Of a DNA stretch of 43,189 nt, positions 1,612 to 17,225 are shown in pieces. Within the stretch, counting starts at the first letter, position 1. Every line of letters starts with the position of its first letter. This DNA is from Hoeflea sp. BAL378 (GTDB taxonomy: Bacteria; Pseudomonadota; Alphaproteobacteria; Rhizobiales; Rhizobiaceae), in NCBI RefSeq assembly GCF_000759435.1, contig NZ_JRJG01000028.1, forward strand, positions 1 through 43,189, in the 5' to 3' direction. Position numbers and translations under genes: made by a program. The notes beneath the pieces were generated by a model. The model saw nothing but the letters and a program-made list of their open reading frames with translations, was not told the origin of the DNA and did no database searches.

Positions 1612-4600
1612 ATGACGGTCGGGAACACACGCGGGTCGGAAACGCTGCTTGCGGAGGCTGCGTCCATCGCCGAAAGGGGCAAAAAGCCGCATGTCGATCC
1701 GGACGTGCTGTTCTCCCGCGCCAGCGTCGACGATCTCAGGCATTTCCCGGCCAGCACGCTGGCCAGCTACGCCGTGCTTGCCGAGACCGAGCTTCGCGCC
1801 TGGGACGGCACGACCGCCCGGGTGAGCCTGGTCGATGTCGACAAGGCCACGACCGACGGCCGCGATGTCACCGTCCTGTCGATCACCACGCTGAACAAGC
1901 CGTTCCTCTATGATTCGGTCATGGGCGAAGTCACCTCGGAGGTGCGCGACATCCTGATGGCGCTGCACCCGATCCTGGTCGTCTCGGGCGACGCGCCGGC
2001 GGTGCTGTTCTCGCATGGCGACGGCAGCGAGCCCAAGCAGCGGGTCAGCCACATCCAGATCCACATGCCGCGGCTCGGCGAGGAAGCCTCCGCGAAGCTC
2101 GCCGAGCGGGTGCGCTATGTGCTCGACCAGATCCGCGCGGCGGTGGGCGACTGGAAAGCCATGCTGGCGATGATCGACCACAGCGCCGCCGATCTGGTGG
2201 CGCTCGACGTCGACAAGAGCGTCGAGCCGGCCCGGCAGGAGGCGCTCGCCTTCATCGCCTGGCTGAGAGACAACAATTTCACCTTTCTCGGCATGCGCGA
2301 ATATGTCTATTCCGGCGACGGCGAGACCGCGCAGTTGAGCCGGGCCTCGTCGGAAGGACTCGGCATCCTCTCCGATCCCGACGTGCTGGTGCTGCGGCTC
2401 GGCAAGGACCAGGTCACCACCACGCCCGAGATCCTGCAATTCCTGCAGGGGCCGGATTTTCTGATCGTCACCAAGGCCAATGCCCGCTCGGTGGTCCATC
2501 GCCGCGCCTATATGGACTATATCGGCATCAAGCGGTTCAACAGGAAGGGCAAAGTGATCGGCGAGCTGCGCGTGGTCGGGCTTTTCACCTCCACCGCCTA
2601 TACCGGCTCGGTCACCCGCATCCCCCTGCTCCGCTCCAAGGTGCAGGCGGTCGTCTCCGAATTCGGCTACGACCCCGAAAGCCATTCCGGCAAATTGCTG
2701 CTCAACACGCTCGAGGCCTATCCGCGGGACGACCTGTTCCAGATCGACACCCAGATGCTGGCGCGGTTCTGCTACCAGATCAACGAACTGTCCGACCGGC
2801 CCCGGGTCCGGGTGCTGCCGCGGATCGATCATTTCGACCGCTTCGTCTCGCTGATCGTCTATGTGCCGCGCGACCAGTATGATTCGGTCGCCCGCGAACG
2901 CATCGGCGCCTATTTCAAGACCGTCTACAACGGTCGTGTGTCGGCTTACTATCCCGCCTTTCCGGAAGGCGGCGTGGCACGCGTGCATTTCATCATCGGC
3001 CGCTCCGAGGGCAAGACGCCGCAGGTCTCGCAGGAGCAGCTCGAACGCGACGTCCGCTCCATCGTCACCCGCTGGGAGGACCAGTTCCGCGCACTCGGCG
3101 GGGCCAACGCCGCGCGGATGGGCGTGAGCCCGTCCTACAAAGAGAGGTTCCGGCCCGAGGAGGCGCTGGCCGATATCGGCGACATCCTGGCCTGCAAGGC
3201 GCCCGGCGCGATCCGGATCGCCTTCTACCGCGGCGACAACACCGCCGAGGACCATCTGGCGCTGAAGATCTTCCATGCCGGCGAACCGGTGTCGCTGTCG
3301 CGCCGGGTGCCGCTTCTCGAGAATCTCGGCTTCCAGGTGATCAGCGAGCAGACCCACGAGATCTTTCTCGACGAAAAGGCCGGATCCTCGAGCACCGTCT
3401 TCGTGCACGACATGGAAATCGCCCACGAGGACGGCCGCCTGATCGACCTGGCGTCCGACGGCGCGCGGCTCGAGGAGGCGTTCCTGTCGGTCTGGCGCGG
3501 CCACACCGACAATGACAGCTACAACCGGTTGGTGACCAATGCCGGCCTTTCGGTGCGCGAGGCGACCGTGCTTAGGGCCTATGCGCGCTATCTGCGGCAG
3601 GCGGGCATCGCCTATTCCCAGGAATACATCGCCCACAGCCTCAACCGTCATGCCGGCATTTCCGCCAAATTGTTCGAACTGTTCCGGATCCGGTTCGATA
3701 TTCGGCTTGAGGCCGGCGCCCGCGAGAAGCAGAGCGCCCGGCTGATGGAGGAGATCGAGACCGCGCTCACCGAGGTGCCGAGCCTCGACGACGACAAGAT
3801 CCTGCGGCGCTATGTCAACGCCATCGCGGCGTCGCTGAGGACCAATTATTTCCAGACCGGCGCCGACGGCGCGCCGCGCCCGGCGATGGCCTTCAAGCTC
3901 GATCCGAAGAAGCTCGAGGGATTGCCGGAGCCCCGCCCCTTCCGCGAGATCTTCGTCTATGGCTCGGAAGTCGAGGGCGTGCATCTGCGCTTCGGCCCCG
4001 TCGCCCGCGGCGGCCTGCGCTGGTCGGACCGGGCGCAGGACTACCGCACCGAGGTGCTGGGACTGGTCAAGGCGCAGCAGGTCAAGAACGCGGTGATCGT
4101 GCCGGTCGGCGCCAAGGGCGGCTTCTATCCCAAGAAGCTGCCGGTCGAGGGCGGCCGCGACGCGGTGTTCGAGGCCGGCCGCGAGGCCTACAAGCTGTTC
4201 ATCCGCACCCTGCTGTCGGTGACCGACAACATCGTCAATGACGCGATCGTGCCGCCGGCCGACACCATCCGCCATGACGCCGACGACCCCTATTTCGTGG
4301 TCGCCGCAGACAAGGGCACCGCAACCTTCTCCGACACCGCCAATGCGCTGAGCCAGGAGCAGGATTTCTGGCTCGACGACGCCTTCGCCTCCGGCGGCTC
4401 CGCCGGCTATGACCACAAGAAGATGGGCATCACCGCGCGCGGCGCCTGGGAGGCGGTCAAGCGGCATTTCCGCGAAATGGACATCGACATCCAGACCACG
4501 CCGTTCACCGTCGCCGGCGTCGGCGACATGTCGGGCGACGTCTTCGGCAACGGCATGCTGTTGTCCCGGAAGATCCGGCTGGTCGCGGCCTTCGACCACC

Positions 4601-14309: not shown

Positions 14310-14347
14310 TTGATCCGGCAAGGATAAAGGAATATATTCCTCTATCA
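14310..14347 (+). promoter_or_regulatory. Putative promoter with 14-bp palindrome over the -10; possibly leaderless
   Basis: TTGATC (14310-14315), a 17-bp spacer and TATATT (14333-14338) form a good sigma-70 pair. The -10 is the centre of the perfect palindrome AGGAATATATTCCT (14328-14341). The expected start of transcription, 7-9 bases after the -10, falls on or next to the A of the thermonuclease ATG (14347), which would give a leaderless mRNA. The palindrome would suit a dimeric repressor. The assignment rests on sequence pattern only. Confidence 0.5.
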
Positions 14348-14820
14348 TGCGAATCACCCTTCCCCGCCTGTCCGCGTTTGCCCTTGCCCACATGCTGGTG
14401 CTGGTTTCGGTCCACGCGGCGGGGGCAAGTCAGGACGAGTGGCGCAGCGTCGCCGGCCCGGTGTCCGCCCGCATTGTCAGGATCATCGACGGCGACACGC
14501 TGCTGGTCGACGCCCATCCCTGGCCGGGGCACGCCGTGCGGGTCTCGGTAAGGCTGCGCGGCATCGACACGCCGGAACACCGGTCGTCATGCGCGCAGGA
14601 ACGGATGGCGGCGAACCTGGCCCGCGTCGAGCTCGAGCGGCTTGTCTCGGGATTCTCCACCGTCGACCTGATCAACGTCTCCGGCGGCAAGTATTACGGC
14701 CGAGTGCTGGCCGATCTCAGGGCCGGCACGCGCGACATCGCCGCGGCCATGCTGGAAAGCGGACTGGCGCGGCCCTACGCGGGCGGCAGGCGGGTGAAGG
14801 CAGTCTGCGCCAACGAGTGA
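14347..14820 (+). CDS. Secreted staphylococcal nuclease-like (TNase) protein
   Basis: A 157-residue protein with a signal peptide (hydrophobic LSAFALAHMLVLVSV, likely cleavage near AAGA-S at about residue 26-28), so periplasmic or extracellular. The SNase OB-fold core follows, with RIIDGDTLLVDA, the calcium/catalytic stretch RLRGIDTPEHR and YYGRVLADL. The three catalytic positions of staphylococcal nuclease (Arg35, Glu43, Arg87) appear conserved as the Arg of RLRG, the Glu of TPEH and the Arg of YYGR. Short rhizobial relatives are annotated as thermonuclease family proteins. Nuclease activity is likely but not proven. Confidence 0.85.
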   Translation: MRITLPRLSAFALAHMLVLVSVHAAGASQDEWRSVAGPVSARIVRIIDGDTLLVDAHPWPGHAVRVSVRLRGIDTPEHRSSCAQERMAANLARVELERLVSGFSTVDLINVSGGKYYGRVLADLRAGTRDIAAAMLESGLARPYAGGRRVKAVCANE

Positions 14821-14831
14821 ACGGAATCAAA

Positions 14832-14856
14832 AAGGCCACCCGCGAGGGGTGGCCTT
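14832..14856 (-). terminator. Intrinsic terminator of the minus-strand mini-gene
   Basis: AAGGCCACCC and GGGTGGCCTT form a 10-bp stem around a 5-base loop. On the minus strand a run of five T follows immediately (GGCCTTTTTGATT); on the plus strand only TT follows. The orientation therefore best serves the small unit at 14933-14998, although it may also end the thermonuclease transcript. Confidence 0.75.
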
Positions 14857-14932
14857 CGTGAATTCCAGCGCCGGTTGGACGCCTGCCCGATCGCTTCGAG
14901 AAGGACCGGGACTTGCCAGTATCACCGGCTCT

Positions 14933-14998
14933 TCAGAGGCTGCTCCGAAGTCCGGCAATCCGAATCGTACGAACCGGCTTTTGGGAATCACTCGACAT
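14933..14998 (-). CDS. Orphan 21-codon ORF with a full-length anti-16S ribosome-binding site
   Basis: ATG at 14998, 21 codons, TGA at 14933-14935. The peptide begins MSSDSQKPVRT, is basic (4 Arg/Lys in the first 13 residues) and ends LRSSL. Upstream, the minus strand reads GAAAGGAGGTGATCC (15000-15014), complementary over 15 bases to the canonical 3' tail of 16S rRNA; GGAGG is 7 bases from the ATG, ideal for initiation. The unit lies between the acs terminator and its own intrinsic terminator, so it is transcriptionally separate. A 5-bp hairpin (AGCCC/GGGCT) precedes the ribosome-binding site in the leader. No function or relative is recognised; it could be a small protein, a dual-function RNA or a ribosome-binding decoy. 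Confidence 0.5.
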   Translation of the reverse strand: MSSDSQKPVRTIRIAGLRSSL

Positions 14999-15170
14999 CG
15001 GATCACCTCCTTTCAATGGTTGAAGACAGCCCAGTCTGTATCGGGCTTTGAGCGATTGCAAGATTTAAATCAGCTTCGGATTCCGGGCCGCTTTTGCGCT
15101 GGTGCGGACCGATCCTGCCCCCACCCTCTGCCCCGGCCCCGAAAGCCTGTACCATCCATCGTTCATGAAA

Positions 15171-15197
15171 AAGCCCGCCGGAGTGATCGGCGGGCTT
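15171..15197 (-). terminator. Intrinsic terminator of acs
   Basis: AAGCCCGCCG, a 7-base loop, then CGGCGGGCTT, with TTTTT completing the minus-strand 3' side (GGGCTTTTTCATG). It lies about 75 bp past the acs stop in the direction of transcription and separates acs from the mini-gene downstream. Confidence 0.85.
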
Positions 15198-15272: not shown

Positions 15273-17225
15273 TCAGCCCTTCTTGTTCTGCCGGTTGGCG
15301 ATCAGGTCGTCCACCACGCTCGGATCGGCCAGCGTCGAGGTGTCGCCCAGCGCGCTGAATTCATCCTCGGCGATCTTGCGGAGGATCCGGCGCATGATCT
15401 TGCCCGAGCGGGTCTTGGGCAGGCCCGGCGAGAACTGGATCTTGTCCGGCGAGGCGATCGGGCCGATCTCGTGGCGGACATGGTTGACCAGCGCCCTGCG
15501 CAGCTCGTCGCTTCCTTCCTGGCCTTCCATCAGCGTGATGTAGCAGTAGATGCCCTGGCCCTTGAGGTCATGCGGATAGCCGACCACGGCGGCCTCCGAG
15601 ACCGCGTCATGCGACACCAGAGCGCTTTCGACCTCGGCCGTTCCCATCCGGTGGCCCGAGACGTTGATGACGTCGTCGACGCGGCCCGTGATCCAGTAAT
15701 AGCCGTCTTCGTCGCGGCGGCAGCCGTCGCCGGTGAAGTACTTGCCCTTGTAGGTGGAGAAATAGGTCTGGATGAAGCGCTCGTGGTCTCCATAGACCGT
15801 GCGCATCTGCCCCGGCCAGGAATCAACGATGCACAGATTGCCTTCCGCGGTGCCCTCGAGCACGTCGCCGTCATTGTCGACCAGTTGCGGCTGCACGCCG
15901 AAGAACGGCCGCGTCGCCGAACCGGGCTTGAGCGGCGTCGCGCCCGGCAGCGGGGTGATCAGGATGCCGCCGGTTTCGGTCTGCCACCAGGTGTCGACGA
16001 TCGGGCAGCGCTTCTCGCCCACGACATTGTAGTACCAGATCCAGGCTTCCGGATTGATCGGCTCGCCCACCGATCCTAGGACTCTCAAGGACTTGCGCGA
16101 CGACCTTGTCACGTGGTCGTCGCCCGCTCCCATCAGCGCGCGGATCGCCGTCGGCGCCGTGTAGAAGATGTTGACCTGATGCTTGTCGACCACCTCCCAG
16201 AACCGTCCCGGCGTGGGATAGTTCGGCACGCCCTCGAACATCAGCGTGGTGGCGCCGTTGGCGAGCGGGCCGTAGACGATGTAGGAATGACCGGTGACCC
16301 AGCCGACATCGGCGGTGCACCAGTAGATGTCCCCGGGGTGATAGTCGAAGACATATTCATGTGTCATCGAGGCATAGACCAGGTAGCCGCCGGTGGTGTG
16401 CAGCACGCCCTTGGGCTTTCCGGTCGAGCCCGATGTATAGAGGATGAACAGCGGGTCCTCGGCCTTCATCTTGGCCGGCGGGCAGTGCGGCTTGGCCGCC
16501 GCGATCGCCTCGTGGTACCAGATGTCGCGCGCGTCGTACCATCCGATCTTGCCGGCGGTGCGCCGGACCACCAGCACGTTCTTGACGATGACGCCCGACC
16601 GCTGGGCGATCTCGACGGCGAGGTCGACATTGTGCTTGAGCGGGATCTTCTTGCCGCCGCGCAGGCCCTCGTCGGCGGTGATCACGAAGGTCGATTCGCA
16701 GTCGGAGATCCGGCCGGCCAGCGCGTCGGGGGAAAATCCGCCGAAGACGATCGAGTGGATCGCGCCGATGCGGGTGCAGGCCAGCATCGCATAGGCCGCT
16801 TCCGGGATCATCGGCATGTAGATCGTGACCCGGTCGCCCTTCTTCACGCCATTGGACTTCATCACATTGGCGAGGCGGCAGACCTGGTCGTAAAGCTCTT
16901 TGTAGGTGATCTTCCGGTCATCATAGGGGTTGTCGCCCTCCCAGATGATGGCCACCTGGTCGCCGCGCTTCTCAAGGTGACGGTCGATGCAATTGTAGGA
17001 AACATTGGTGAGGCCGTCCTCGAACCACTTGATCGAGACCTTGCCGTCGAAGCTTGTGTTCTTGACCTTGGTGTAGGGCTTGAACCAGTCGATCCGCTTG
17101 CCGTGCTTGTCCCAGAATTTGTCCGGATCCTTGATGCTCTGCTTGTACCATTTCTGGTAGGTCTCATCATCGATTAGCGCCCGGGATTTCGCGTCCTTCA
17201 GGACCTTGTAGGTTTTATGCGGCAT
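15273..17225 (-). CDS. acs: Acetyl-CoA synthetase
   Basis: An AMP-forming ligase converting acetate, ATP and CoA to acetyl-CoA. Its 650 residues match the family. Visible motifs are the P-loop-like [11 protein letters not shown], the acyl-binding [26 protein letters not shown] (hinge Asp region) and the C-terminal [15 protein letters not shown]. The lysine in SGK is residue 609, the position reversibly acetylated in enterobacterial Acs, so post-translational control by acetylation/deacetylation is likely. The ATG at 17225 has GGAGGAG about 6 bases upstream. The open reading continues upstream antisense to trcR, but that part is not coding. It diverges from trcR; the shared 243-bp gap holds both promoters. 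Confidence 0.97.

Follow-up and report, generated by a model that had tools for sequence, protein, structure and literature searches.

The stretch analyzed here (the window) comprises 43,189 nucleotides of Hoeflea sp. BAL378 contig NZ_JRJG01000028.1. Two protein-coding genes flank the region of interest: on the minus strand, an upstream gene (15273..17225) for a 650-aa protein that we take to be acetate-CoA ligase (acs), and on the plus strand, a convergent thermonuclease-like gene (14347..14820; Pfam SNase PF00565, E = 2.7e-7). Between them lies a minus-strand unit with an expected RNA of ~200 nt, bounded, as the first-pass annotation of this DNA had it, by two intrinsic terminators on that strand: a terminator-like hairpin and T run downstream of acs, recognized by eye (about 15168..15197), and the unit's own terminator, a GC-rich hairpin followed by a T run (14829..14857), whose hairpin also occurs in the window-genus units examined. 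A promoter-like pair, found by simple consensus scoring only, consists of a −35-like TTGCAA (15056..15061, minus strand) and, after a 17-nt spacer, a −10-like CAGACT (15033..15038; CACATT in other species); it places the predicted transcription start near 15027, and conservation within the genus starts at query position 173, which is 15028. A simple sequence scan of the window, stricter than the consensus scoring, missed both terminators and the promoter-like site. The layout is confirmed as that of a free-standing mini-gene with a promoter-like site and its own terminator.

Within the unit, all on the minus strand, a conserved leader includes CAAC (15019..15022), which belongs to the leader consensus and also forms the first bases of the consensus of the Rfam family CC2171. 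It is followed by the 15-nt GAAAGGAGGTGATCC (15000..15014), complementary to the single-stranded 16S rRNA tail, and by a 21-codon ORF, MSSDSQKPVRTIRIAGLRSSL plus TGA (14933..14998; ATG at 14998-14996, stop at 14935-14933). The ATG lies 1 nt past the 15-mer and 7 nt past its GGAGG core, the latter being the 7-base distance given in the first-pass annotation, whose description of match and ORF agrees with ours. A predicted hairpin with a CAGC loop contains the stop codon (14931..14950); some other genera have a related hairpin near the stop with a different stem, as judged by eye. Codons 2-5 (TCGAGTGATTCC, 14984..14995) are predicted to form the 5' arm of a long-range helix, P1, whose 3' arm (GGAATTCACGA, 14856..14866) abuts the terminator. 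The unit as a whole folds somewhat better than shuffled sequences (z = −2.46; 5 of 200 shuffles were equally good).

A 381-nt query matched 33 of 61 genomes, including 17 of 17 from the same genus (72-96% identity over about 190-240 nt); other genera retain the leader, the 16S block, and the start codon. Leader, ORF, and terminator are conserved in relatives, so the lack of conservation that the first-pass annotation had named as counting against the gene was not encountered. A strict pattern matched at least 119 stretches of a species-genome collection; among the 80 titles listed, 77 name an alphaproteobacterial taxon and 3 only "Proteobacteria," with hosts that include Sphingomonas, Novosphingobium, Mesorhizobium, Bosea, Methylobacterium, Bradyrhizobium, Brevundimonas, Defluviimonas, Roseococcus, and Azospirillum. 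The unit was present in 49 of 385 genomes of a class sample, once in each (control, 0). With a looser pattern, 75 of 398 genomes of a phylum sample matched, which by hand count are 69 of ~135 alphaproteobacteria and 6 of ~263 others; one alphaproteobacterial genome had two matches. Allowing ≤2 mismatches, 165 of 297 genomes of an order sample matched, a few of these being second, chance-like matches, and five genomes of the same family (G477, G510, G534, G669, and G681) gave no match at this setting. The unit thus appears to be typically a one-copy element of many alphaproteobacterial genomes and rare elsewhere in the phylum.

No 16S 3' end could be located in the readable sequence of the Hoeflea assembly, and we therefore infer the 15-nt match from relatives: a genome of the same genus (G003) has GGCTGGATCACCTCCTTTCTAAGGAA as its 16S 3' end, and the identical tail is present in S. 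meliloti 16S oligonucleotides (PMC6943124). Most genomes tried likewise yielded no 16S sequence. The predicted duplex of GAAAGGAGGTGATCC with this tail has an energy of −28.5 kcal/mol, compared with a mean of −6.3 and a best value of −17.3 kcal/mol for 614 starts in the window (candidate start codons of ORFs ≥250 aa). The 16S match is thus exceptional, as the first-pass annotation had it. The 14-mer AAAGGAGGTGATCC occurs a single time in the 5,480,459-base assembly (reversed control, 0). As a pattern by itself, the 13-mer AAAGGAGGTGATC gave 83 non-16S matches in 385 alphaproteobacterial genomes after the remaining matches, antisense to 16S genes, had been separated by hand. A start codon lies 1-2 nt after the 13-mer in 73 of the 83 (ATG, 41; GTG, 28; TTG, 4), and 65 additionally have a TCN second codon, never more than one in any genome. 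Predicted openness of the 16S complement is only slightly above that of body-shuffled controls (unpaired fraction of 0.47 versus 0.43, single-sequence folding).

Variation within the 15-mer tends to preserve pairing. Among the matches listed, 35 changes keep a wobble pair (A>G, C>T), 3 are pairing-breaking transitions (G>A, T>C), and 8 are transversions, 6 of them at the first (outermost) base; outside the GGAGG core, the listed matches show 34 wobble-keeping and 2 pairing-breaking changes. These counts cover 41 of the 46 mismatch rows listed, the 5 without ATG or GTG in place being left out, and the binomial P values (5e-9 and 4e-6) ignore relatedness of the units. The C15>T change alone is found in seven families among the matches listed, and within the window's genus the block varies between GAAAAGGAGGTGATCT and GAGAGGAGGTGATC forms, both of which keep pairing via G-U. 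This substitution pattern indicates that extended 16S pairing is kept under selection through G-U wobble changes. A plus-strand 16S rRNA fragment was considered as the origin of the likeness and dropped: the similarity spans only 15 nt, and the wobble pattern and layout favor a minus-strand RNA. In one family (f6; genomes G041, G957, G974, G1005, and G1032), the units open with CAAAGGAGG in place of GAAAGGAGG.

Such over-long pairing, together with structure after the start codon, might hold 30S subunits captive, either in reserve or as a sink, with the ORF serving to free stuck ribosomes. The wobble-kept pairing with the whole tail (mean predicted duplex over units, −28.3 kcal/mol) and a helix that starts 1-6 nt after the start codon speak for this explanation; however, the constrained ORF length and kept stop codons described below point to complete translation, and a gene present in one copy would affect the 30S pool only if its RNA were extremely abundant. 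We regard this explanation as unlikely.

At curated Rfam thresholds, nothing was found in the window. At relaxed thresholds, the whole CC2171 model (RF01867, positions 1-159) aligns to 15022-14833 with 36.7 bits (E = 1.4e-6; cut-off, 75), taking in the leader CAAC, the GAAAGGAGGTGATCC-N-RTGTC block, a predicted closing helix near the start, and the 3' intrinsic terminator. Of 20 other units that share the leader, 10 reach the cut-off, so the remark in the first-pass annotation that no described family was recognized is not quite right. In the loci of 15 relatives, CC2171 matched at E ≤0.1 in 11, all below the cut-off. When the window segment without the 5' block (14820-14998) was searched, CC2171 was absent among 17 Rfam matches with E up to 10. 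Because the match rests on the 5' block and shared layout, membership is probable rather than proven; by sequence, the unit is most likely a divergent member or orthologue of CC2171. Synteny failed as proof of orthology: acs adjoins only the units of near relatives, and homologue comparison did not confirm a Roseococcus locus in the acs cluster.

CC2171 is a described sRNA family, so this unit is not wholly unknown. Rfam types the Caulobacter RNA as an sRNA, and a constrained ORF and a wobble-kept 16S complement are absent from the accessible portions of the Rfam-related text. A literature search, with supplementary tables and Landt 2008 (reportedly the original Caulobacter sRNA paper) outside its reach, found no published account of 16S pairing or an ORF in CC2171. 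What appears to be new here is the selection pattern, that is, wobble-kept 16S pairing and a kept ORF length together with a drifting peptide. According to the accessible part of its description, Rfam 15 added one covarying pair for CC2171 (PMC11701678). In Mesorhizobium huakuii 7653R, the minus-strand RNA MH_s33, annotated as RF01867 CC2171, has a 215-nt sequenced product; its likeness to our unit is by that annotation alone, and the accessible text gives no ORF or 16S pairing (PMC5596092).

The MH_s33 product (PMC5596092), the size of the unit, its own promoter-like site and terminator, and the Rfam sRNA label all fit an ordinary trans-acting sRNA, in which a strong Shine-Dalgarno sequence and short ORF would only protect the RNA by ribosome cover while the 3' part pairs with targets regardless. 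Whole-tail pairing and a helix at the start codon would, however, be unneeded in such an RNA, and no conserved seed across clades was identified; we consider this explanation quite unlikely. Schrader 2014, in its accessible text, reported that most Caulobacter noncoding RNAs are untranslated and that two earlier-predicted ones are translated, which cuts both ways for translation of a CC2171-type RNA (PMC4117421).

Two other known systems resemble the unit in part, as far as the accessible portions of their descriptions go. The rnTrpL RNA of Sinorhizobium meliloti, likewise a small RNA ending in a terminator of its own, doubles as the message for a 14-residue peptide, peTrpL (PMC10117765, PMC7143759); it is, however, a trp attenuator that lacks a leader and precedes trpE, whereas our unit possesses both a leader and a complete 16S complement and is linked to no gene. 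The S. meliloti sRNA RcsR1 was considered as a homologue and dropped, being transcribed from the same position as rnTrpL. Extended Shine-Dalgarno mRNAs, for example in Staphylococcus aureus, likewise pair with 16S rRNA beyond the usual extent, but these are ordinary Gram-positive mRNAs, whereas the unit is one dedicated small RNA pairing with the whole tail (PMC13009471).

ORF length, P1 duplexes, covariation, folding, and 16S duplexes were analyzed in 182 distinct units, namely those with a hairpin found by a terminator rule (a first rule found one in 140 of 172, a few of them doubtful); for ORF length, these were thinned to <75% identity, leaving 131 representatives. The RNA predicted from the units is about 160-250 nt long (median, 185 nt). 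An ORF of 14-36 codons is present in 129 of 131, and the first stop comes at codon 14 or later in all 131. The other two frames gave 50 and 45, and 200 shuffles gave 45.3 (SD, 5.6; maximum, 60), the shuffles being the better control because a TCTAG motif partly fixes frame 2. The stop precedes the terminator in 182 of 182 units, a result that is partly built in because terminators were sought only from 90 nt past the start codon onward. Stop position is constant while the stop codon varies, both in 32 Sphingomonadales-type units (TGA, 16; TAA, 15; TAG, 1) and in 16 Rhodobacteraceae-type units (TGA, 7; TAG, 7; TAA, 2). From these comparisons, ORF length looks to be under selection. The first-pass annotation had put forward translation and 30S binding, and each idea keeps some support because ORF length looks selected and 16S pairing is wobble-kept; in that respect, its reading stands in part.

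The peptide itself behaves differently among clades. The ORF is present in all 18 members of the window's genus (its own included), with codons 2-5 identical, and more than one codon is used at 13 of the 20 codons after the start, many changes being conservative. In this clade (10 distinct sequences, one from another genus), the substitution ratio is 0.35 in frame and 1.08 and 8.8 in the other frames, which suggests weak purifying selection on the peptide, something that a pure RNA reading does not need. The other five clades have in-frame ratios of 0.63, 1.14, 1.09, 1.26, and 0.81, with similar or lower values in the other frames in most, so that five of the six clades tested show no clear amino acid constraint. 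Peptides of different clades have little in common past M-S, and the GAGCAGCCT motif, which other genera read in frame, is out of frame in the window's genus. The idea of a peptide conserved throughout the class was therefore dropped. Selection would thus seem to favor ribosome recruitment and a quick finish and, for the most part, not the peptide made. As a separate observation, the GGAGCAGCCT hairpin near the stop (14950-14931) encodes in-frame E-Q-P in several other genera and lies in a different frame in the window's genus, as if an RNA element had been retained while the reading frame across it shifted.

A micro-protein gene, in which a very strong ribosome-binding site drives synthesis of a short functional peptide, has its best case in the window's genus, where the in-frame ratio, the conservative codon changes, and the kept ORF length all agree with it. 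The ratios elsewhere (0.63 to 1.26, like or above those of the other frames in most clades), the little that clades share beyond M-S, and the out-of-frame GAGCAGCCT speak against it, and we consider it improbable. The suggestion of a micro-protein, made in the first-pass annotation, is therefore unsupported in general as regards a peptide kept for its sequence, because five of six clades lack clear purifying selection; the window's own genus is the exception.

Promoter-like sites occupy similar positions in several clades by the same consensus scoring: in 15 of 16 window-genus units, the best pair starts 63-65 nt ahead of the start codon, and the −35 element lies 63-66 nt ahead of it in 24 of 31 Mesorhizobium-like and 33 of 50 VSHC/VSHR units. 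No consistent position emerged for Sphingomonadales-type units. The neighboring genes are less constant. Homologues of acs are 78-86% identical in 10 named loci and 39-48% identical in two more, and acs adjacency is kept only in near relatives. Downstream, called ORFs lie on the opposite strand in 94 units and on the same strand in 67; no gene is widely shared, and the biggest same-strand cluster comprises 7 of 161. This absence of a shared downstream gene indicates that the unit is not a simple leader. A transcription attenuator or leader peptide for a downstream gene, the classical layout of which is likewise a short ORF followed by a terminator, was dropped as most improbable, given the convergent SNase gene next in the window, the excess of opposite-strand downstream ORFs, and the lack of any linked codirectional gene. 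Two neighboring RNAs were seen in individual loci: in L021, an Rfam ar14 sRNA (1743-1864, minus strand) that scores 61.7 bits and so passes its cut-off is convergent with the unit, at most ~250 bases away, and in L162, a tmRNA gene (2723-3020, minus strand; Rfam match cut at the 5' end) lies ~1.2 kb away on the same strand.

In each of the large clades, codons 2-5 are able to pair with the segment before the terminator, and do so through differing sequences (CATTGTC/GACAATG, CATGGTTCAGC/GCTGACCATG, and GTGATTCC/GGAATTCAC). Over the 182 units, the native P1 duplex averages −15.1, compared with −10.2 when 3' arms are swapped in from other clades and −10.5 when they are shuffled; the native duplex outdid all 40 swaps in 46 of 182 units and all 40 shuffles in 46. 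The window's own P1 duplex is predicted at −13.6 kcal/mol. Covariation in GTG-start VS[HDIN] units (0.859 versus 0.816) was reached by none of 500 shuffles, that in MSH units by 1 of 500, and that in all 182 units pooled by 2 of 500; among MSS-type units, the window's among them, it was not significant (101 of 500). Selection and covariation tests were computed ignoring relatedness of the units. In several small clades (Bradyrhizobium VSFT/VSYP/VSYT, MSRS, and MSSV), P1 was no better than with swapped arms, and by single-sequence folding codons 2-6 were no more paired than in body-shuffled controls (unpaired fraction of 0.38 versus 0.35). Covariation therefore supports the predicted helix in part, that is, in two of three clades.

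Given selection on ribosome recruitment and a quick finish, no linked gene, and a helix that may form at the start codon, we favor, tentatively and at somewhat less than an even chance, an RNA in which ribosome loading determines the fold or the activity. The sequences themselves show how the unit is laid out, that it is conserved, that changes in its 16S complement keep wobble pairs, and that its ORF is constrained in length; translation, mutual exclusion of P1 and the 30S subunit, and any target are what we infer from them. The 5' end would act as a 30S docking arm that pairs with the whole single-stranded 16S tail and puts the RTG start in the P site. Codons 2-5 can instead take part in P1, which would have to come apart for a ribosome to occupy the start codon; the ORF being short, a loaded ribosome would initiate, pass P1, and come off ahead of the 3' part. 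Ribosome loading could therefore move the RNA between two states, one with P1 closed and one that is open and translated and has its 3' arm free, and RNA stability or base-pairing activity may thereby be tied to free, mature 30S subunits.

A broader version of this ribosome-loading hypothesis, which we find doubtful as a whole, is that of a widespread alphaproteobacterial ribosome-sensing RNA in which loading, via a short ORF free of sequence constraint, unlocks P1 and so reports 30S availability; if the 5' arm is selected for the complete tail, loading would be confined to free 30S subunits whose 3' end is complete. If true, a little-studied sRNA family would prove to be a widely kept element in which ribosome recruitment and ORF length, not protein, are preserved, and the view of CC2171-type genes as plainly noncoding would need correction. 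Because few RNAs are, to our knowledge, known to pair with the whole 16S tail, the unit would also offer a natural system for the interplay of over-strong Shine-Dalgarno pairing, start-codon structure, and the supply of free 30S subunits.

Rhodobacteraceae-type units have two further features. Those from L032 to L143 carry, between roughly 65 and 30 nt ahead of the start codon, a strongly conserved TTTGACA-ACACAAAATCTGTGGCACGCT stretch with a CACA/TGTG inverted repeat, which looks like a promoter together with a possible regulator site. In addition, some of these units (including L032, L051, and L055) have a CACCTCC just upstream of the terminator that could pair with their own Shine-Dalgarno block, a putative alternative fold specific to this clade.
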